Source of the DNA: Ilumatobacteraceae bacterium
Lineage (GTDB): Bacteria > Actinomycetota > Acidimicrobiia > Acidimicrobiales > Ilumatobacteraceae
Assembly (NCBI GenBank): GCA_021298195.1
Contig: JAJTEQ010000012.1
Span: 1-47,586 of the forward strand
Reading direction: 5' to 3'
Length of the DNA: 47,586 bases
Position numbers and translations under genes: made by a program. Shown in pieces: positions 733-35,395 of this stretch; position 1 is the stretch's first letter; every line of letters starts with the position of its first letter. Below the pieces are notes generated by a model. That model was not told the DNA's origin. It did no database searches and worked only from the letters and a program-made list of their open reading frames with translations.

Positions 733-3700
733 GTGTTTCTCAAGTCCCTCACCCTCAAAGGCTTCAAGTCCTTCGCCGACAACACCGTGATGCACCTCGA
801 ACCCGGGGTGACCGTGGTGGTCGGTCCGAACGGCTCGGGAAAGTCCAACGTGGTCGATGCCATTGCGTGGGTTCTCGGTGCGCAAGCCCCGAGTGCGGTG
901 CGCTCGCAGAAGATGGACGACGTGATTTTCGCCGGTACCGCCAAGCGTCCGGCGCTCGGTCGGGCCGAGGTCACTCTCACGCTCGACAATGCCATGGGTC
1001 TGTTGCCCGTCGACGTCGCCGAGGTGAGCGTCAGCCGCGTTCTCTACCGAACCGGTGAGAGCGAGTACAGCATCAACGGGGTTCCGTGTCGATTGCTCGA
1101 CGTGCAAGAGCTCTTGTCCGATGCCGGTGTCGGGCGCCAGCAGCACGTCATCGTCAGTCAGGGACAGATCGATGCGGTTCTGAACGCGCGCCCCGAGGAT
1201 CGTCGGTCCATCATCGAAGAGGCCGCCGGTGTCCTGAAGTTCCGCAAGCGCAAGGAGAAGTCCGAGCGCCGTCTCGAGGCCACCGAGGGGTCTCTCTTGC
1301 GGGTGCAGGACTTGTTGCGCGAGGTGCGTCGCCAATTGCGACCGCTCGAGCGTCAGGCCGAGGCCGCGCGACGTCACGGCGACCTGGTGGCCGAGCTCAA
1401 CGCATTGCGGCTGTTCCTGAGTGGTCGGGAGATCGCCGGATTCCGTCGCCGACTCGAGACCTTGTCCGGCGATCGCACCGAGGCCGGACGCAAGGAAGAA
1501 GAACTCCGACGTTTGTTGGCCGAACTGGACACCAACGTCATGGCGGCCGAGGCCGAGTTGTCGGCCCGCGGCGAGAGCGGGCTGGGCGACGAGTTGGTGC
1601 GCGTCGAGCAACTGCGCGAGCGGGCCCGTGGAATCTCGATGCTCTTGGTGGAACGACGCCGTTCCTACGAACGCGATCGTGGTCAGATGATGGACTCGGG
1701 TGTCATCGCCAACCTCGAAGCCGATGCCTCGGCCTTGCGTGGCGAACTGGGCGAGGTGGCCGCGGCCATCGGTCGGCTCGAGCCGGAGAATCAGGAACTG
1801 GCTCATGATGAAGCCGCGTTCGAGGGCGAGCGCACGGCCGCGGCCACGTTGTTCGATCACCTCGCATCGTCGTCGTCGGCCGCCACCGCGGCGGCCGAGG
1901 TACGCGGAGAATTGCGCACGCTGCGGGCCTCGGTCGAAGCCGCCGACTCCGAGCACCGTCGTCTCGTGGCCCGCATCGCCAACCTCGACGAACGGCAGGC
2001 CCGATTGGTCTCCGAGGTGGACCGACTGCGCGGAGAGTGCGAGAAGTCCCAAGCGATCGAACTGCCCCTCGTCAACGAGGTGACCGAGGCCGAGTCGCGT
2101 CGATTGGCCGCGGAGGCCGCCCTGGAGACCGCCGTGGCGTCGCGCAACGCGGTGGCGGCCGAATTGGCTCGTTGGCAGGCGCGTTCGGAGGCGTTGCAAC
2201 TGGCGCTCGACAGTGCGCGTGCGCGAGCCGGTGCCGAGAAGTTGAAAGACGTCTCCGGAGTGGTGGGCACGCTGCTCGATCTGGTGGTCATCGAAGACGG
2301 CTGGGAGGCCTCGATCGAAGCCGCCCTGGGCGAGGCGTTGCTGTCGGTCGTGGTCGAGAACACCGAGTCGGCACGACGGGCGTTGTCGCATCTGCGCACG
2401 TCATCGGCCTCCGGTGCCGTGTTGGCGCTGGGGTCGCGCACGGGAGTGGCGGTGGCCAGCGTGGTGCCCGCGGGTGCCCAGCGGGTACGCGACCACGTTC
2501 GTTCTTCGCGGTCGGACGTCGAAGCACTCCTCGATCTGTTGCTCGCCAATTCCATTCGGGTGAGCGATTGGACCGCGGCGGTCGACGCCGTCATGGCGGA
2601 TCCGCGGCTGGTGGCCGTCACCGCCGAGGGTGATCGTTTCACCACGACGGGATGGCGTATCGGTGTCGCCGGTGGTGGTGCCACGGCGGCTGCTCTCGAG
2701 GATGCCTTGCGCAACGCCGAGCAATCGAAGATCGACCTCGGTGCCCGCGACGAGGCCGTGCGGGTGGCCACGTCCGAGAGTCAGATCGCGCGTCAACGAG
2801 AGCAGGACGTTCAAAAGCGACTCGACGCGAACGACGCCGCTTTCACGGCGGCATCGGAAGCCCTCGCACGAACCCAGAGCGAACGTCGTGAATGTGCGAC
2901 GGAGTCCGAGGGGCTGCAACCGACACTCGGGGAGATCGACGAGAGACTCGTTCGCTTGCGGTCACGGGTCGCCGAACTCGAACATCTCGTGCCGTCCTTG
3001 GAACACGAAGAGCAGGCCGAGGCCGAAGCCGCCAAGGCGCGGGGCGAGGCTCGTGCGACCATGGAAGCCAAGGCCGCCTTGTTGGTCGGACGCCGTCGCG
3101 ATCTCGAGGTCCGTTCGGCCGGACTGCTCGAGCGCAAGCAATTCATCGAGTCCCGCTTGGCCGAGGCCGAGCGACGACTCGAGGCCGATGCGGTGGCGCG
3201 GGCCGAGGCCGCCGGGCGCCGGGAGAAAATCGAACGAATTCTGGGTGCCTCCGAACGTCTCGCCGCGATCGTGGACGCGCACCGGGTGTCCATCGAAGCG
3301 CGACTGGCCGAACTTCACGAGATGCGACGTCGTCAGAGTGACGAGGTGCGGGCTCTGGCCACTCGTCTCGACGAGATGCGTCGTTCGCGCAGCGGGGCCG
3401 AGCGCGAACTGGAAGAGGTTCGTGAGCGCTCGCGCCGCACGGAGGTGGAAGAGGCCGAGGTCAAGATGCGCCTCGAGGCCACCGTCGAAACGTTGCGTCG
3501 TGACCTCGACGTCGAGCCGGAGGTCGCCGAGGCCGCCGAGTTGCCCGCGTTGCCCGAAGGTGTGAGTGCACCGGCGCGCGCCCGCGACCTCGAAAGGGAA
3601 TTGCGGTTGATGGGGCCCATCAACCCCTTGGCCCTGGAGGAATTCAACGAATTGCAGGAGCGCCACCGGTTCCTCGAGGAGCAACTCGAGGACGTTCGCA

Positions 3701-28090: not shown

Positions 28091-29032
28091 TCAGCCGACG
28101 TCGGCGGCGCGCTGACCCTCGTGCCACACCCGCGACACGCTGGGATGACGCAACTTGCCCAGGGCTCGGGCCTCGATCTGGCGCACCCGCTCCCGGGTGA
28201 CGCCCATCTTGTCGCCGATCTCGGCCAGCGTCAGGGGCACGCCGTCGATCCCGAACCGGGCCCGCAGCACTTCCTCTTCACGCTCCTCGAGGCGACGCAA
28301 CTGCTCGGTGAGGGCTCGCTTTTCCAAGGCGGCCGCGGCGGCTTCGTACGGCGAGACCGCTCCCTCGTCGGGGATGATCTCGCCCAGTTCGGTCTCACCC
28401 TCGGCGTCGAGAGGGGTGGACAGCGACACGAGGGGCCGACGGTGTTGGCGCACCAAGGCCACCCGCTCGGCACTGACGCCCGACAACTCGGCGACCTCCT
28501 CGACGGTCGGTTGGCGGTCGAGTTCGGCGGCCAGTTTGTCGGTGCTCTGATCGATGAGCGAGTACACCTCGCGCACGTGCGAGGGCACCCTGATGGTCCG
28601 CGAGGAGTCGGCGAGCGCACGACCGATGGACTGGCGAATCCACCACGTGGCGTAGGTGGAGAACTTGAAGCCCTTCTGGTGGTCGAAACCCTCGACGGCG
28701 CGCATCAAGCCGAGGTTGCCTTCCTGGATGAGGTCCAGAAGGCCGAGACCGGCACCTTCGTAGCGACGCGCGACGCTGACGACGAGACGCAGGTTGCACT
28801 GGATGAACTCGGCGCGCGCGGCGTCACCGGCGCGCACGACGCGGTTCAGTTCGGTGCGTTCGCGACCCTTCGGAGCCGGCTCGGTGTCCAGGCGTTCCTG
28901 GGCCACGCGGGATTCGACGATGATGGCGGCCAAGCGACGCTCGTCATCGGCGTTGAGCAACGGATACGTGCCGATGTCGTCGAGGTACTGCCGGAGCAGT
29001 TCACTCTCTGCGTCTCCGGAACGAGGTGCCAT
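28091..29032 (-). CDS. RNA polymerase sigma factor, primary-type (SigA/HrdB-like)
   Basis: This 313-residue sigma-70 has region 1.2 (LLRQYLDDIGTYPLL), region 2 (NLRLVVSVARRYEGAGLGLLDL with GFKFSTYATWWIRQSI), region 3, and region 4.2 with GVTRERVRQIEARALGKLRHP, which matches the -35-reading helix of primary sigma factors. It lacks a long N-terminal region 1.1, so it may be the principal factor in short form or a group 2 paralogue. A minus-strand TACGGT box lies 7 bases before the ATG, so the mRNA is probably leaderless. Confidence 0.93.
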   Translation of the reverse strand: MAPRSGDAESELLRQYLDDIGTYPLLNADDERRLAAIIVESRVAQERLDTEPAPKGRERTELNRVVRAGDAARAEFIQCNLRLVVSVARRYEGAGLGLLDLIQEGNLGLMRAVEGFDHQKGFKFSTYATWWIRQSIGRALADSSRTIRVPSHVREVYSLIDQSTDKLAAELDRQPTVEEVAELSGVSAERVALVRQHRRPLVSLSTPLDAEGETELGEIIPDEGAVSPYEAAAAALEKRALTEQLRRLEEREEEVLRARFGIDGVPLTLAEIGDKMGVTRERVRQIEARALGKLRHPSVSRVWHEGQRAADVG

Positions 29033-29039
29033 GAGGCAA

Positions 29040-29045
29040 ACCGTA
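29040..29045 (-). promoter_or_regulatory. -10 box of the primary-type sigma gene
   Basis: TACGGT (complement of 29040-29045) sits 7 bases before the ATG at 29032. Transcription from it would begin at or next to the start codon. Confidence 0.45.
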
Positions 29046-29077
29046 ATGGCGCGGTTCCCGCGCACGGTGGATACCCG

Positions 29078-31636
29078 TCAGGCGAAGAATCCCCTCAGTG
29101 CGTCGGCCATCTTCTTTCGGGGTCCGGCGCCCGAAGGCAACATGTCGACCATCGTGAGGGACGTGTGGACGTGTCCGCGAGCCTTCAGGTGTTGCACGGG
29201 CACACCGGCGGCCCGAAGAGCCGCCGCGTACGCGTCGCCCTCGTCGCGCAGTGGGTCGAACTGACAGGTGACGATCATCGCCGGCGGCAAGTCGGCGAGG
29301 TTCGCCGCCAGCAACGGCGACGCCTTGGGGCTCGTGCGCTCGGAGGGGTCGGCGTAGTGATTCCAGAACCATTCCATGAGCGACTTGGTGAGGATGAAGC
29401 CGCTGGCGTTCTCGTCATGGGACGGATGTTGGCGTGATCCGTCGGTGACGGGTGTCAGCAACAATTGTCCGCTCAAACGCGGTCCGCCGGCATCGCGCGC
29501 CGTCTGGGCGGCCACGGCGGCCACGTTGCCGCCGGCGCTCCAGCCCGCCACGGCGAGTTGGTCCGGGCGTCCACCGAGAGCCTCCGCGTGTTCGGCGACC
29601 CAGCACACGGCGGCGTATCCGTCGTCGGCGGCGGCGGGGAACCGATTCTCGGGTGCGTGGCGATAGTCGACCGACACGATGATCACGTCGGCGAGCGAGC
29701 ACAGGGCCCGACACAACGGGTCATCGGAGGTGTGGCTGCCGAACACCCAGCCACCGCCGTGGAAATAGACGACGACCGGATGCGGTCCGGGGGAGGCGGG
29801 TCGATAGAGCCGGTAGTTCAGGTCACCTCCGGCGCCCGGCAGGACACCGTCGACGATCTCGCCGACGGCGGGGCCGGGCGGGCGCATGGCCGAGGAGGCT
29901 TCGGAGAAGGCCCGCGCATCGACGGGACTCATGGACTCGATGGGGGGCAGGCCGAGTGAGGCCATCATGTCCACGACCATCTCCACGTCAGGTTGGATCT
30001 CGCGGATCGGACCGTCGTTCACTTGTCGCTTGCCGTCGCCCTCGAGCACGAAGCCGAGGTAGCCACGGGCGCGAACCTCGTCGCAGATTCGGCGATAGCG
30101 ACCCACACCACCGATGTAGGGAAAGAGCACTCGCGGCTTGCCGGGCACGTTGGCTCCCATGTACCAGGAGTCGGTCTCCTGGAACAGCGTGATGTCGGCG
30201 CAGTCGGTGCAGTGCTTGCGCCAGGCCTCTTCGGCGAACGGTGTGGCCTCGATGGTGTCGAACCCTTTGTCGCGCAAGTCGACGAGAGTGTCGGTGATCC
30301 AGTCGACGTGCTGCTCGATGGACACCATCATGTTCGAGAGCACCGACGGGCTGCCCGGTCCGGTGATCATGTAGAGGTTCGGGAAGCCGACCGTGGTGAG
30401 TCCCAGATAGTTGTGCGGACCGTGTTCCCACTTCTGCTTCAACGTCACGCCGTCCTTGCCCGTGATGTCGACGTTGACGATGGCGCCCGTCATGGCGTCG
30501 AAACCCGTGGCGTAGACGATGGCATCGAAGTCGTGCGACTCGCCGCCGAAGTCGATGCCGGTCTCGGTGATGGTGCGAATCGGGCTGGTGTTGAGGTCGA
30601 CCAGGCGCACATGGGGTCGGTTGAACGTCTGGAAATAGTTCGTGTCCATGCACGGACGCTTGGTCCCGTAGGGGTGTTTGCGCGGGGAGAGCAGTTCGGC
30701 GGTGGCGGGATCCTTCACCACGGCGCGGATCTTCTCGCGCATGAAGTCGGCCACCACCTCGTTGGCGACCCGATTGGTTCCCACATCGGTGAAGACCGCA
30801 CCTGGTTCGAGCAGCTCGCCCTTGTTCCAGGCGACCTCCAGCATCTCGAAAGCCGTTTCCCGAGGAACTCCGAGCGCCGACATCGTGGGCAGGGTCATGG
30901 GTACGCCGGACATCGACTGCTTCGCCTCGGCCTCGTAGGCGGCGCGGTCGGCCTTCAGGCGGTCGAGCCGATACTTCGGCGGCGACCCGTTGAGGGCGGG
31001 AATGGAGAAGTTCGGTGTCCGCTGGAACACCACGAGTTCGCTGGCTTGATCGGCGATGAGGGGGATGGACTGGATTCCCGACGAACCGGTGCCGATGACG
31101 GCCACCTTCTTGCCCGTGAAATCCACGCCCTCGTGGGGCCAACGACCGGTGACGTAGACGTCGCCTCGGAATCGATCGGTTCCGGCGATGTCGGGTTCCT
31201 TGGGGACCGAGAGACAACCGGTGGCCATCACGTAGTGACGACAGGTGATGGTCTCGCCCGTCGAGGTGTGTATCGACCACTTCTTGGTGGAGTCGTTCCA
31301 TTCCGCGCCGTTCACACGAACGTCGAAGTCGATACCCGAGTACAGATCGTGCTTCTTGGCGACGAATTGGGCGTAGCGCAGGATCTCGGGTTGGGCGGCA
31401 TGCTTCTCGGACCACGTCCATTGCTCGTGCAACTCGGGGTCCCAGGTGTACTGGTAGTCGGTGGTGGAGATGTCGCAGCGGGCACCGGGGTAGCGGTTCC
31501 AGTACCACGTTCCACCGACGTCGTCGGCCGCCTCGAGGACACGATGACTGAATCCGTTCTGGCGCAACTGGCGCAGAAGGTACATGCCGGCGAAGCCGGC
31601 TCCCACGACCACGACATCGACATCGGACTTCGTCAT
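29078..31636 (-). CDS. Fusion of a Baeyer-Villiger-type flavin monooxygenase and an alpha/beta-hydrolase esterase
   Basis: The 852-residue protein joins two enzymes. Residues 1-540 form a class B flavoprotein monooxygenase: FAD motif GAGFAGMY at 12-19, [20 protein letters not shown] motif GTGSSG at 182-187, and YATGFD. Residues about 570-852 form a hormone-sensitive-lipase-type hydrolase: oxyanion HGGG at 626-629, GWSAG with Ser700, Asp794 in DPLRD and His824. The pair could turn a ketone into an ester and then cleave it. The fingerprint F-x-G-x3-H-x3-W-P has Val162 in place of His. A GGGGGG ribosome-binding site precedes the ATG at 31636. No other catabolic gene is adjacent on this strand. 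Confidence 0.9.
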
Positions 31637-31746
31637 GAATTTTCCCCCCGTGAACGGTGTGAGCCGTCCCCGCCATCCTCGCAGACGAGAGCCGTGGTGC
31701 TCAACCGCAGGAGCCACGACGAAACGGGGCCGACGGGGTGCGCCGG

Positions 31747-31766: not shown

Positions 31767-31840
31767 GGGCGCATAGCTCAGTTGGTTAGAGCGCTTCCCT
31801 TACAAGGAAGATGTCGGGGGTTCGAGTCCCTCTGCGCCCA
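31767..31840 (+). tRNA. tRNA-Val (anticodon TAC)
   Basis: The acceptor GGGCGCA pairs with TGCGCCC, the anticodon loop is CTTACAA on a CTTCC/GGAAG stem, and the T arm is GGGGG-TTCGAGT-CCCTC. The discriminator is A; the next bases are CCG, so CCA is not fully encoded. It lies in the gap between two minus-strand genes. Confidence 0.97.
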
Positions 31841-31845
31841 CCGAA

Positions 31846-32649
31846 TCAGGGCTTCCCGGGGCTCCCGGACCACCGAGGTGGCCGTCGTTCGAGGAAGGCC
31901 TCCACGCCCTCGCGCGCGTCGGGCGAACGCATCAAATGGTGGTGCAATTCCGTCTCGAGGGCGTCGATCCGTTCGCGGGTGGACGTCATCGACTCCCAGA
32001 GCGCGCGCTTGCTGGCCGCGGCCGATGCCGGCGCCACGTTCACCGCGATGTCGTGAGCGATCTCCATCGCCACGTCGAGCACCTCGTCATTGGGAGTCAC
32101 TCGGCTGCACAGGCTCATCGCCCGCGCCTCGTCGCCGTCGAAGGTGCGTCCCGTCAGAAGAATGTCGGCGGCGTTGGCGAACCCGACGATGCGCGGGAGG
32201 GTCCAGTGCGACATTCCGTCACCCATCACTCCACGGCGCACCTGGACGATGCCGTACTTGGCGTCGCGTGCCATCACGCGAATATCGCATTGGAGGGCCA
32301 GAGTCAGTCCGATGCCGATGGCATGACCGTTGATGGCCGCGATCACCGGTTTGCGCACGTCCCAGGGACGAAACGCCACGCCCGAGGTGGTGAAGTCCTC
32401 GTCGCGGGGACGGAACGTGTCGCCACCCGACGTCAGGTCGGCGCCGGCGCAAAACGCCGGGGGAGTGCCGGTCACCACGACCGCACGGATGGCGTCGTTC
32501 TCGTCGCAATGTCGATAGTGCCCCGCGAGAAGTGTCCCCATCTCGGCGTTGAAGGCGTTGCGAACCTCGGGCCGGTTCAGGGTGATCACTGCGACGCCAC
32601 CCTCGACGCGGAACAGAACCGGACCGGAACTCGTGGGCGGCATGTTCAT
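31846..32649 (-). CDS. Enoyl-CoA hydratase/isomerase family protein
   Basis: This 267-residue crotonase-fold enzyme has VAVITLNRPEVRNAFN, the oxyanion segment FCAGADLTSGG, PVIAAINGHAIGIGLTLAL and a C-terminal region ending EGVEAFLERRPPRW, typical of the family. It is the last gene of a four-gene operon and its ATG (32649) overlaps the upstream stop as ATGA; a second ATG lies two codons in. The 3' end lies 5 bases from tRNA-Val on the other strand. The acyl-CoA substrate is unknown. Confidence 0.88.
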   Translation of the reverse strand: MNMPPTSSGPVLFRVEGGVAVITLNRPEVRNAFNAEMGTLLAGHYRHCDENDAIRAVVVTGTPPAFCAGADLTSGGDTFRPRDEDFTTSGVAFRPWDVRKPVIAAINGHAIGIGLTLALQCDIRVMARDAKYGIVQVRRGVMGDGMSHWTLPRIVGFANAADILLTGRTFDGDEARAMSLCSRVTPNDEVLDVAMEIAHDIAVNVAPASAAASKRALWESMTSTRERIDALETELHHHLMRSPDAREGVEAFLERRPPRWSGSPGKP

Positions 32650-34343
32650 TCGCGGGGCTTCACGGACGAGCGATATCGATCGGCGTTGCCGGTGCTCGGG
32701 TGCGTGTCGCCGGCCGGTCCGGCGGCGAAGGCCCGCAGGATGTTGGTGGTCGCGGTGCGAACGAACGCGGTGGTCGCTTCGTCGCCCCACTCGTCGGCAT
32801 CGAGGGCGTTGATCCAGGCGATGGTGCCGGTGGCGATGACCCCGGCACCGCTCGGATGCGAGTAATAGGTCATCGCGTGGTTAAACACGAAATCCTTGTA
32901 GTTGACCGGCCCCGAGGCCAACACTTCCAAGGTCTCAGGTTCGCGACCCGGGGGGCCGAGTCCATCGGCTTCGATCGAGACGAGTCGGCGGAAGGCCTGG
33001 CCGTTGCGAACATCGGTTCCCGCGAACACCCAGTTGGTGGGGTTGACCACCCGGAAGTTGGCGGTGATACCGGCCGCGAAGTACTGAACTCCGATCAACT
33101 CGTTCTCGGGAGCGTTGAGGGGCGCGTTGCGCCACTGGACCGTCGCCTCCATCGGATCGGTCTCGGACAGGGGGTCGTCGTCGATCGTCCGGTAGTTCGC
33201 CATCTGGCGGTAGGCGAGCCCGTCGTCGTTCGGTTCGAGCCGTACGTGTCGGTACACGGCGTTCGCACCGAAGAAGGCCAGATTGACCCCCGCGTCCCGT
33301 GCTCGCTCCAGACACGTGCGCATCCCGCGCGAGTAGTACTCGTCGTGACCGGTCGTGAGCAGGGCGGTACGGTTGGCGAACACGGCGTCGAGTTCGTCGT
33401 TCTCGCCCAACCCACTGGTGTGCAGATCGATGTCGGTCGCGTACGCGGTGTCGATTCCCAACTCCTCGATCAACGCGATGAGTGGTAGCTCGTGGGTGAG
33501 GAAGTCGGCCGACCCCCAGCTGTAGGCCAGATCGTAGGGACGGTCGAAGGACACCACCATGGAGCGATCGAATCGGCTGCCGGCACCGAAGTTCTCGTAC
33601 AAGCTGCGCCCGCCCCAGGGGTTGTAGGCCTGCCACGTCGTGACGGCCGAAACCACCACGAGCGAGGCCGCGCATTCGTCGCGTCGCACCGTGAGTGGCA
33701 CGTAATGGGCACCCCCCTCGGAGGAGACCAACTTCAACAGGTACGAACCCGGGGGCCACGTGTCGTCGATGGTGAACGACGTCGCCGCGGCCCAATTCGA
33801 CACGTGCATGCGGGTTTCGCGATCCATTGACGGTTCCTCGAATTGCCACGGCTGTTCGAGTTCGTCCGATCGCCAGATCAAGCGACCGAGGGCGCCGCCG
33901 TAGTGACCCATGCGGTAGGCCTCGATGTGCCACGTGGGCGCGGCGGTCGCGACGTACAGCGACACGGTCTGGCCCGGTCGCGCACTGGTGGTGTCGGCGA
34001 AGCCTTCGATGATGCCGGGCATGGCCGCTCGCTTCGTCGGGGCGATGTCGTCGAGAATTCTCCACGCGTCCGTGCCCTCGAGGCTGTTCTCGGCGGCGAG
34101 CCAACCGGGCTGGGTGTAGGGGGCGACCGGTGCCGACGTCGTACTGGTGCTGGAGGGCGACACGATGGTGGACGAAGACGTCGCGTCGGCCACGGTCGAG
34201 TCGGCCACGGTCGAGTCGGGCGGGGTACCTCGAGTGACATCGGACCCGTCGGCGTTGTCATTCGACGAGGAACACGCGGCGACCACGGCTGAGGCACCGA
34301 GGGCCAGGAACACGCGACGGGAGACGGGGAACTCGGGAATCAT
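32646..34343 (-). CDS. Tat-exported lipoprotein with N,N-dimethylformamidase large-subunit-like domain
   Basis: The 565-residue precursor has a twin-arginine motif SRRVFLALG and a lipobox ending AAC (Cys24), then a Ser/Thr linker and a beta-rich domain with PGQTVSLYV and MGHYGGALGR. The catalytic-type domain has TTWQAYNPWGGRSLYEN, GHDEYYSRGMR and FFGANAVYRHVR. The Tyr residues near 336-337 and 364 sit where dimethylformamidase places two iron-binding tyrosines; this correspondence is inferred. The ATG at 34343 is preferred; a GTG at 34367 would overlap the Gfo/Idh gene. It is exported and anchored, unlike cytoplasmic dimethylformamidase. Substrate unknown. Confidence 0.78.
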   Translation of the reverse strand: MIPEFPVSRRVFLALGASAVVAACSSSNDNADGSDVTRGTPPDSTVADSTVADATSSSTIVSPSSTSTTSAPVAPYTQPGWLAAENSLEGTDAWRILDDIAPTKRAAMPGIIEGFADTTSARPGQTVSLYVATAAPTWHIEAYRMGHYGGALGRLIWRSDELEQPWQFEEPSMDRETRMHVSNWAAATSFTIDDTWPPGSYLLKLVSSEGGAHYVPLTVRRDECAASLVVVSAVTTWQAYNPWGGRSLYENFGAGSRFDRSMVVSFDRPYDLAYSWGSADFLTHELPLIALIEELGIDTAYATDIDLHTSGLGENDELDAVFANRTALLTTGHDEYYSRGMRTCLERARDAGVNLAFFGANAVYRHVRLEPNDDGLAYRQMANYRTIDDDPLSETDPMEATVQWRNAPLNAPENELIGVQYFAAGITANFRVVNPTNWVFAGTDVRNGQAFRRLVSIEADGLGPPGREPETLEVLASGPVNYKDFVFNHAMTYYSHPSGAGVIATGTIAWINALDADEWGDEATTAFVRTATTNILRAFAAGPAGDTHPSTGNADRYRSSVKPRE

Positions 34344-34351
34344 CGGCTCGG

Positions 34352-35395
34352 TCAGGGAGTCTTCCACAGCTGCAAGGGTGTACGCGTGCGATCACACCCA
34401 CTGGGAACCGGGGTCGACGAGCCATCGTGGGCCGCCGACACGTAACAGGCGCACACGATCTCCATCATCCAACGACCGAAAACCGCGTCCATGAAGGGCG
34501 CTCGCCGGTTCGCCAGATCGTCGATGAACTCGCGCATCTGTGCGATGTATCCGAAGTTCTCGATCATCGGAATGGTGGCCGTCGTTCGCGGCAGTGCGAT
34601 CGGATCACCGTTGTGCTCCAAGGAAAGCGACGGCAACAACTCGGCCCGCACCACATGGTTGGCCGACGACACCTGGATGTCCCACGAGGGCACCTCGCCC
34701 CCCTCCCAACTGGAGATCACGGATCCCCTCAGCCCGGATTCGAAGACCAAGGTGACCTCGGCGTGGGTGTCGGTCGTGTCCCCGCGGAGTCGGGACTCGA
34801 CCGCGACGACCTCCCCGGCGCGAGCGACTCGTCCGATGAGCACGGCCACGGCCACGGGGTGGATGCCGAGGTCGTACAACGCGCCTCCGCCCCACTCGGG
34901 AGAGGTGAAGTTGCCCCACGTGGGCAGCGATTGGATCGTCCGTAACTGCAGATGGTCGACGGGCGATCCGTCGGCGACGATGCGCGCCACGAGCCCGATG
35001 ATGGCGTGGGTGATGGGGGCGTAGGCGAGGTTCTCGGCGTAGAGCAGTCGATCACCGTGTCGGTGGGCCAGGTCCACCAATCGGTCGGCTTCGTTCAACG
35101 TGAGCACGAGAGGCTTCTCCAGCAGCACCGCGGCGCCTCGCTCCAACGCGTGACACGCGTGATCGAAATGTTGGGCCGGTGGAGTGGCCACCACCACGAT
35201 GTCGGCTCCGGCGGGGAGTCGGGCGTAGTCGACCGCGTGAGCGCCGAGATCGCCGGCCAACTTGGCGCGCGACTGCTCGGATCGCGAAGCGACCGCCACG
35301 ACGGACGCGCCCGCCTCGCGGGCCGCCAACGCGTGTGCACCCGCGATCATTCCGGCGCCACACAGCGCGACCGAAGTCGGTCGACCCGCGACCAT
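34352..35395 (-). CDS. Gfo/Idh/MocA family NAD(P)-dependent oxidoreductase
   Basis: This 347-residue enzyme has an N-terminal Rossmann fold (VALCGAGMIAGAHA) and the family catalytic motif LLEKPLVLT with its Lys, then the substrate domain with GGGALYDLGIHPV, whose Asp and His complete the usual site. Members oxidise or epimerise sugars, inositols or pyranose-like rings. It starts 3 bases after the LLM gene stop and precedes the lipoprotein, so all four genes are likely one transcript. The substrate is not readable. Confidence 0.9.
   Translation of the reverse strand: MVAGRPTSVALCGAGMIAGAHALAAREAGASVVAVASRSEQSRAKLAGDLGAHAVDYARLPAGADIVVVATPPAQHFDHACHALERGAAVLLEKPLVLTLNEADRLVDLAHRHGDRLLYAENLAYAPITHAIIGLVARIVADGSPVDHLQLRTIQSLPTWGNFTSPEWGGGALYDLGIHPVAVAVLIGRVARAGEVVAVESRLRGDTTDTHAEVTLVFESGLRGSVISSWEGGEVPSWDIQVSSANHVVRAELLPSLSLEHNGDPIALPRTTATIPMIENFGYIAQMREFIDDLANRRAPFMDAVFGRWMMEIVCACYVSAAHDGSSTPVPSGCDRTRTPLQLWKTP

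Follow-up and report, generated by a model that had tools for sequence, protein, structure and literature searches.

A single reading frame in the window, the 47,586-nucleotide stretch of an Ilumatobacteraceae genome analysed here, joins a Baeyer-Villiger-type monooxygenase (BVMO) to an HSL-type esterase. Judged from its sequence, the product is likely to be a ketone-cleaving enzyme complete in itself, with an active site in each half, a reading to which we assign a probability of about 0.68, with both activities and the class of substrate predicted. The N-terminal flavin monooxygenase, similar to phenylacetone monooxygenase (PAMO), would use NADPH and O2 to insert an oxygen beside the carbonyl of a ketone, forming an ester. 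The C-terminal esterase, tethered by about 14 residues, would split this ester into an alcohol and an acid (acetate in the case of a methyl ketone), following a presumed handover of the ester between the two halves. Owing to the kinship with PAMO and steroid monooxygenase, methyl ketones and acetate esters are suggested, and the substrate is probably a methyl ketone of the aryl, alkyl or steroid type.

Architecture of the fusion protein

The initial annotation had described two enzymes in one frame with no frameshift needed, and this stands: the frame runs exactly from ATG to stop (Table 1) on the minus strand, which that annotation had left unstated, and is uninterrupted in 48 genomes of the family. 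The linker, put there at about 30 residues, is shorter, at about 14, the monooxygenase ending near residue 532 and the esterase starting near residue 547. GC3 is similar across the two halves (0.846 and 0.83), and an AlphaFold2 model of the fusion, based on a 45-row alignment, has a mean pLDDT of 84.1 and a pTM of 0.80. Among the 60 entries listed of the 208 PDB sequences matched, none spans both halves. A scan of promoters and terminators found none.

Table 1 Features of the fusion gene in the window (counts refer to the aligned acidimicrobial fusions).
Feature	Position	Strand	Basis or conservation
Whole fusion gene, 852 aa, ATG to stop	29078..31636	(-)	Full length kept in relatives
G-rich ribosome-binding-like GGGGGGA, 6 bases 5' of the fusion ATG	31643..31649	(-)	Read from sequence
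PAMO-like monooxygenase domain, residues ~1-532	30041..31636	(-)	1w4x, E 4.4e-175; fold search, 2yls, TMt 0.93
First Rossmann GxGxxG (FAD), residues 12-17	31586..31603	(-)	G12, G14, G17 in 40/40
BVMO1 fingerprint, residues 41-55, last residue Asp55 (PAMO Asp66)	31472..31516	(-)	Pattern 40/40, D55 40/40
BVMO2 fingerprint region, residues 156-167; His position is Val162 (codon 31151-31153)	31136..31171	(-)	
Second Rossmann GxGxxG (NADPH), residues 182-187	31076..31093	(-)	G182, G184 40/40; residue 187 Gly 24, Ala 14, Ser 2
Arg327, aligned with PAMO Arg337	30656..30658	(-)	40/40
Linker, residues 533-546	29999..30040	(-)	Ends of domain alignments
HSL-type alpha/beta-hydrolase domain, residues 547-852	29081..29998	(-)	
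HGGG oxyanion motif, residues 626-629	29750..29761	(-)	40/40
Nucleophile Ser700 in GWSAGG (usual: GDSAGG)	29537..29539	(-)	Ser 40/40; Trp699 39/40
Triad Asp794	29255..29257	(-)	40/40
Triad His824	29165..29167	(-)	40/40

Residues 4–531 of the monooxygenase half (query, residues 1–540) align with PAMO (PDB 1w4x, E of 4.4e-175), and the 50 PDB matches listed for a fold search with the model are all BVMOs, with PAMO first (TMt of 0.93). Identity over the whole domain is about 51% with PAMO and about 47% with steroid monooxygenase (PDB 4aos), neither of which carries a fused esterase. Shared with PAMO are the FAD and NADPH motifs and the positions of Asp66, Arg337 and Met446, which have functional roles in PAMO. 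Both GxGxx[GA] Rossmann motifs are present in the window protein; across the 40 acidimicrobial fusions the first is kept in all and the second in 38, two having Ser as the last residue. Asp55, Arg206, Thr207, Lys326 and Arg327 are each found in 40/40, as is the BVMO1 fingerprint [AG]GxWxxxx[FY]P[GM]xxxD.

By fold, and by its close similarity to BVMOs of known structure, this half belongs among the type I BVMOs. The second fingerprint, FxGxxxHxxxW[PD] (BVMO2), is lacking in the window protein, in which Val162 replaces the His (His173 of PAMO); the strict pattern occurs in 0/40 acidimicrobial fusions as against 55/66 other rows. The fingerprint-His column holds Val (20), Phe (13), Tyr (3), Leu (2) and Ser (2) in the acidimicrobial fusions, and His in 58 of the other 66 rows, the eight exceptions being Gln (2, the sister pair), Trp (2), Phe (2), Tyr (1) and Arg (1). 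The earlier description of a complete FAD/NADPH monooxygenase covering residues 1–540 overstates this half, which matches PAMO strongly but ends near residue 532 and is missing the fingerprint His. Descent and fold make it a homologue of the type I BVMOs, though not a strict member by fingerprint.

The esterase half (residues 547–852) matches the esterase Est8 (PDB 4ypv) at an E of 5.4e-72, and EST2 (PDB 1evq) was also aligned. The whole fusion protein matches Pfam Abhydrolase_3 (PF07859; E of 7.4e-72, 241.9 bits with a cut-off of 25) and scores 351.5 with NCBIfam LipP1 (NF058653, cut-off 350), two other acidimicrobial fusions falling narrowly below this cut-off (348.0 and 340.1). The initial assignment as an HSL-type esterase with HGGG, Ser700, Asp794 and His824 was correct in every position, and these residues, together with GxSxG, are kept in 40/40 acidimicrobial fusions. 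The HGGG motif and Ser-Asp-His triad are common to the HSL or family IV esterases Est8, EST2 and LipP1, from which the present esterase differs in being fused, in having GWSAGG for GDSAGG, and in the residues after the catalytic His, which are His-Thr-Ser in the fusions where others have His-Gly-Phe. The exact GDSAG elbow is replaced by GWSAG in 39 of the 40 and by GYSAG in one, with the catalytic Ser retained; the elbow position is Asp in 63 of the 69 other esterase rows.

Around the time of fusion the esterase apparently underwent more change than the monooxygenase, as the stem of its clade measures 1.04 changes per column versus 0.3 for the monooxygenase stem, and the larger change may reflect a dedicated substrate. 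A stand-alone esterase (L069, 5968-6936, plus strand) is about 61% identical to the fused esterase, has the same GWSAG and HTS signatures, and is a possible fission product; a tree test of its nesting within the fused clade, which would mean fission, gave a p-AU of 0.504.

Distribution, origins and gene neighbourhood

In a class-level sample of 395 genomes, one unbroken frame spanning almost the full query occurs in 18, and in a further genome (G374) the frame runs off a contig end. The family sample comprised 200 genomes, and 62 gave a match (E up to 1e-200): in 48 it is one frame covering at least residues 6–812, and in 14 it is partial. A search for the two-domain architecture across the phylum, as suggested at the outset, gave 30 matches (E up to 1e-140) in 396 genomes, with full-length fusions in six, all of the same family; the three samples overlap. 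Three carriers, G002, G027 and G157, are single-contig genomes, in agreement with the initial description of a natural fusion as distinct from an assembly artefact. Of the 134 plasmid records with a match, ten contain 80% or more of the query at a single site. The 40 aligned fusions, from which 12 of the 48 full-length family matches are absent, are called acidimicrobial on the strength of how close relatives are titled (L031, L039 and L040, for example), a few titles in the clade disagreeing (Bifidobacterium and Acidobacteria MAGs).

Purifying selection acts on both halves. By a simple count, dN/dS against relative L033 is 0.10 for the monooxygenase and 0.085 for the esterase, and lies at about 0.08–0.20 for either half in 4 of 11 pairs, the other seven being saturated at synonymous sites. 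The halves evolve in step (Mantel r of 0.84, with 0 of 1,000 permutations as high), as shared descent alone would also have it.

The monooxygenase tree has 106 rows, of which 47 are fused, 23 have an adjacent esterase gene and 36 are single. The 40 acidimicrobial fusions group in a single clade (SH-aLRT 100), and four changes of the fused label are required across the tree. A common origin of acidimicrobial and Bacillaceae fusions, a grouping chosen for the constraint after a quick tree had been viewed, is rejected (log-likelihood 143 lower, p-AU of 0.001). The trees indicate that the BVMO–esterase fusion arose more than once, in Bacillaceae independently of the acidimicrobial clade. Near-duplicates (L001–L006 and L111–L120) and pieces (L019, L032, L047, L048, L134 and L135) were dropped before tree building, as were L056 (split) and L070 (short) from the monooxygenase tree and L057, L063, L068 and L073 from the esterase tree; L141 and L171 are identical in sequence. 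The esterase tree labels L056 and L070 as solo although each adjoins a monooxygenase frame.

Sister to the Bacillaceae fusions (L052–L055 and L058) are adjacent pairs of the Cytobacillus type, in which the esterase match starts 59–77 bases past the end of the monooxygenase frame. The linkers of three of the five fusions (L052–L054) contain AAGGAGG or GGAGG followed by ATG, and L055 and L058 have lost the ATG. In Bacillaceae, it would seem, a separate esterase gene's ribosome site and start codon were turned into linker codons. With an apparent ribosome site and ATG kept in the linkers of L052–L054, translation of the esterase by itself from this mRNA might still occur.

Outside these groups, genome G027, a carrier of the first kind of fusion, has another built on a PtlE-type monooxygenase (L133, 1632-4904, minus strand), which scores 711.9 bits with NF045818 (cut-off 1100), five other fusions scoring 249.8–285.8. 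A possible fourth fusion on a Bradyrhizobium CB82 plasmid (L159), annotated there for its hydrolase half only, is not counted as firm: within 2700-3300 its first Rossmann motif is read in a different frame from the remainder, which means that this copy is either disrupted or carries a sequencing error. A further BVMO of the genome under study, on another contig (C97, L132), was rejected as a fusion, being a separate gene of 572 amino acids.

Unfused relatives of the monooxygenase have an adjacent esterase gene in 23 of 59 tree rows, 18 of them in the same order; in the other 36, many with a flank of only about 1.5 kb, an HSL-type neighbour was not found. Two genomes of the same family (G240 and G413) carry, besides the fusion, neighbouring unfused genes for the two enzymes, which share about 50% identity with it. 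At one locus (L021, 3057-4577, plus strand) an esterase gene of a different family, PF00756, directly follows a relative of the fused BVMO gene, touching or overlapping its end, and its product could do the same job as the HSL-type esterase; the monooxygenase tree labels L020 and L021 as single although the PF00756 esterase adjoins L021.

Across 32 loci compared for signs of a pathway in the gene neighbourhood, no family is common to more than six once frames overlapping the fusion are removed, the widest families in the comparison being those frames themselves. A fusion carrying its own partner fits this lack of conserved neighbours. The neighbours in the window are kept only in near relatives (E up to 1e-15, in flanks of at most 6 kb and often less). 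Starting 12 bases past the fusion stop on the same strand is a sigma-70-type factor (28091-29065, minus strand; regions 1.2, 2, 3 and 4), an order kept only in close relatives. Between the fusion and an enoyl-CoA hydratase gene, on the strand opposite the fusion, is a tRNA-Val (31767-31842, plus strand; anticodon tac), and the start of the hydratase frame is overlapped by the gene of a protein (32646-34367, minus strand) with an N,N-dimethylformamidase-beta-like C-terminal domain (PF20254).

Predicted chemistry and competing explanations

Counting against a ketone-cleaving enzyme are the loss of the fingerprint His in 40/40 acidimicrobial fusions, the Ser in the second Rossmann motif in 2/40, the GWSAGG elbow, the 36 of 59 unfused rows in which an HSL-type neighbour was not found (many with short flanks) and a context that gives no substrate. 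The missing His is the main doubt: its mutation reduced the efficiency of CHMO and inactivated HAPMO, as cited in PMC3762062. The strict BVMO2 motif is treated as a super-hallmark in PMC9044951, though it can be degenerate, and belongs to the stretch that connects the FAD domain with the NADPH domain, not strictly to the active site (PMC9044951). BVMOAf1 of Aspergillus fumigatus naturally has Gln in place of the fingerprint His and is active as the wild type (PMC3762062). Because of this natural variant and of a motif that lies outside the strict active site and tolerates degeneracy, the loss is probably tolerated in the acidimicrobial fusions, where the replacements (Val, Phe, Tyr, Leu and Ser) are less conservative than the Gln of BVMOAf1.

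The clade-wide absence of the His, the failure of the strict BVMO2 pattern in 40/40 and the precedent of HAPMO would also suit a monooxygenase half that has given up Baeyer-Villiger chemistry and acts as an S/N-oxygenase or NADPH oxidase, the esterase being the working part or acting on unrelated esters. We consider this unlikely, given that Arg327, Asp55, Lys326 and the BVMO1 fingerprint are retained in 40/40, that selection is strong, and that BVMOAf1, its Gln notwithstanding, accepts a bicyclic ketone as substrate, albeit with sulfides oxidized as well (PMC3762062). Distinctly improbable is a fusion that serves mainly as a co-expression device, its halves belonging to one pathway with freely diffusing metabolites and no gain from proximity; unfused neighbouring pairs do occur in other lineages, but the fusion persists in several families of the order where its gene neighbourhood is not conserved. 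Those separate genes elsewhere are also all that could speak for two genes having been joined by an assembly or sequencing error, which is effectively ruled out by one uninterrupted frame in many assemblies, the three single-contig genomes included.

Returning to the ketone-cleaving enzyme, the sequential action of the two halves proposed in the initial annotation is backed in its logic by the conserved single frames, by catalytic residues kept with one exception, and by the adjacency of unfused genes in 23 of 59 rows. The accompanying idea that hydrolysis drives the reaction forward is weak chemistry, as oxygen insertion by the flavin peroxide is already effectively irreversible; relief of product inhibition, ester capture or fixed stoichiometry would be better reasons for coupling. 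More tentatively, and with the odds against it, the acidimicrobial fusions may constitute a distinct bifunctional ketone-cleaving class, in which the linker between the FAD and NADPH domains was rebuilt so that the His was no longer needed, and the esterase elbow and post-His residues were remodelled alongside it to capture one particular ester directly. The rebuilding would be placed at or just before fusion because the sister pair has Gln, and the class would have been overlooked because mining relies on the strict fingerprint.

Relation to known systems and meaning

The BVMO–esterase fusion has unfused counterparts made of two polypeptides, among them, going by a title in the references of PMC4498894, the SAPMO and esterase of Comamonas KF-1. 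AcmA of Gordonia TY-5 converts acetone to methyl acetate, and the esterase AcmB, encoded in the same two-gene operon, hydrolyses the product, which establishes the two-step logic for unfused enzymes (PMC6215540). AcmAB, like the Apiotrichum BVMO and ZOM hydrolase (PMC11291262), has the same two-step logic as the fusion but on two polypeptides, the hydrolases being likened by logic and not by sequence comparison. In alkane breakdown, 2-hexadecanone and myristyl acetate are intermediates, and a BVMO has been characterized for that pathway (PMC12724338). BVMOAf1, too, is naturally extended by a further C-terminal domain and has another residue in place of the fingerprint His, and it is active after removal of that domain; the domain is described as a putative polynucleotide synthase, not an esterase (PMC3762062).

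The open-access literature searched contained no report of a natural BVMO–esterase fusion, which is weak evidence of absence, as subscription papers were mostly outside its scope. PMC9141793, PMC7814890, PMC11423324, PMC6600887, PMC11291262, PMC6801914, PMC6215540 and PMC12943553, in the portions available, concern engineered fusions of a BVMO with an ADH or an ene-reductase, BVMOs and esterases as separate proteins, or tags of an unrelated kind. From the available parts of PMC4498894 and PMC10682829 the word 'hydrolase' is absent, as are 'fusion' from the first and 'fused' from the second.

If active, the protein would be a natural one-protein form of the two-step cascade, ketone to alcohol plus acid, that is built by hand in biocatalysis. 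Owing to the loss of the fingerprint His across the clade, strict fingerprint mining misses these close relatives of known BVMOs, and the loss amounts to a natural experiment on the role of a supposedly important residue. That fusion happened repeatedly suggests a selective advantage in linking BVMO and esterase.
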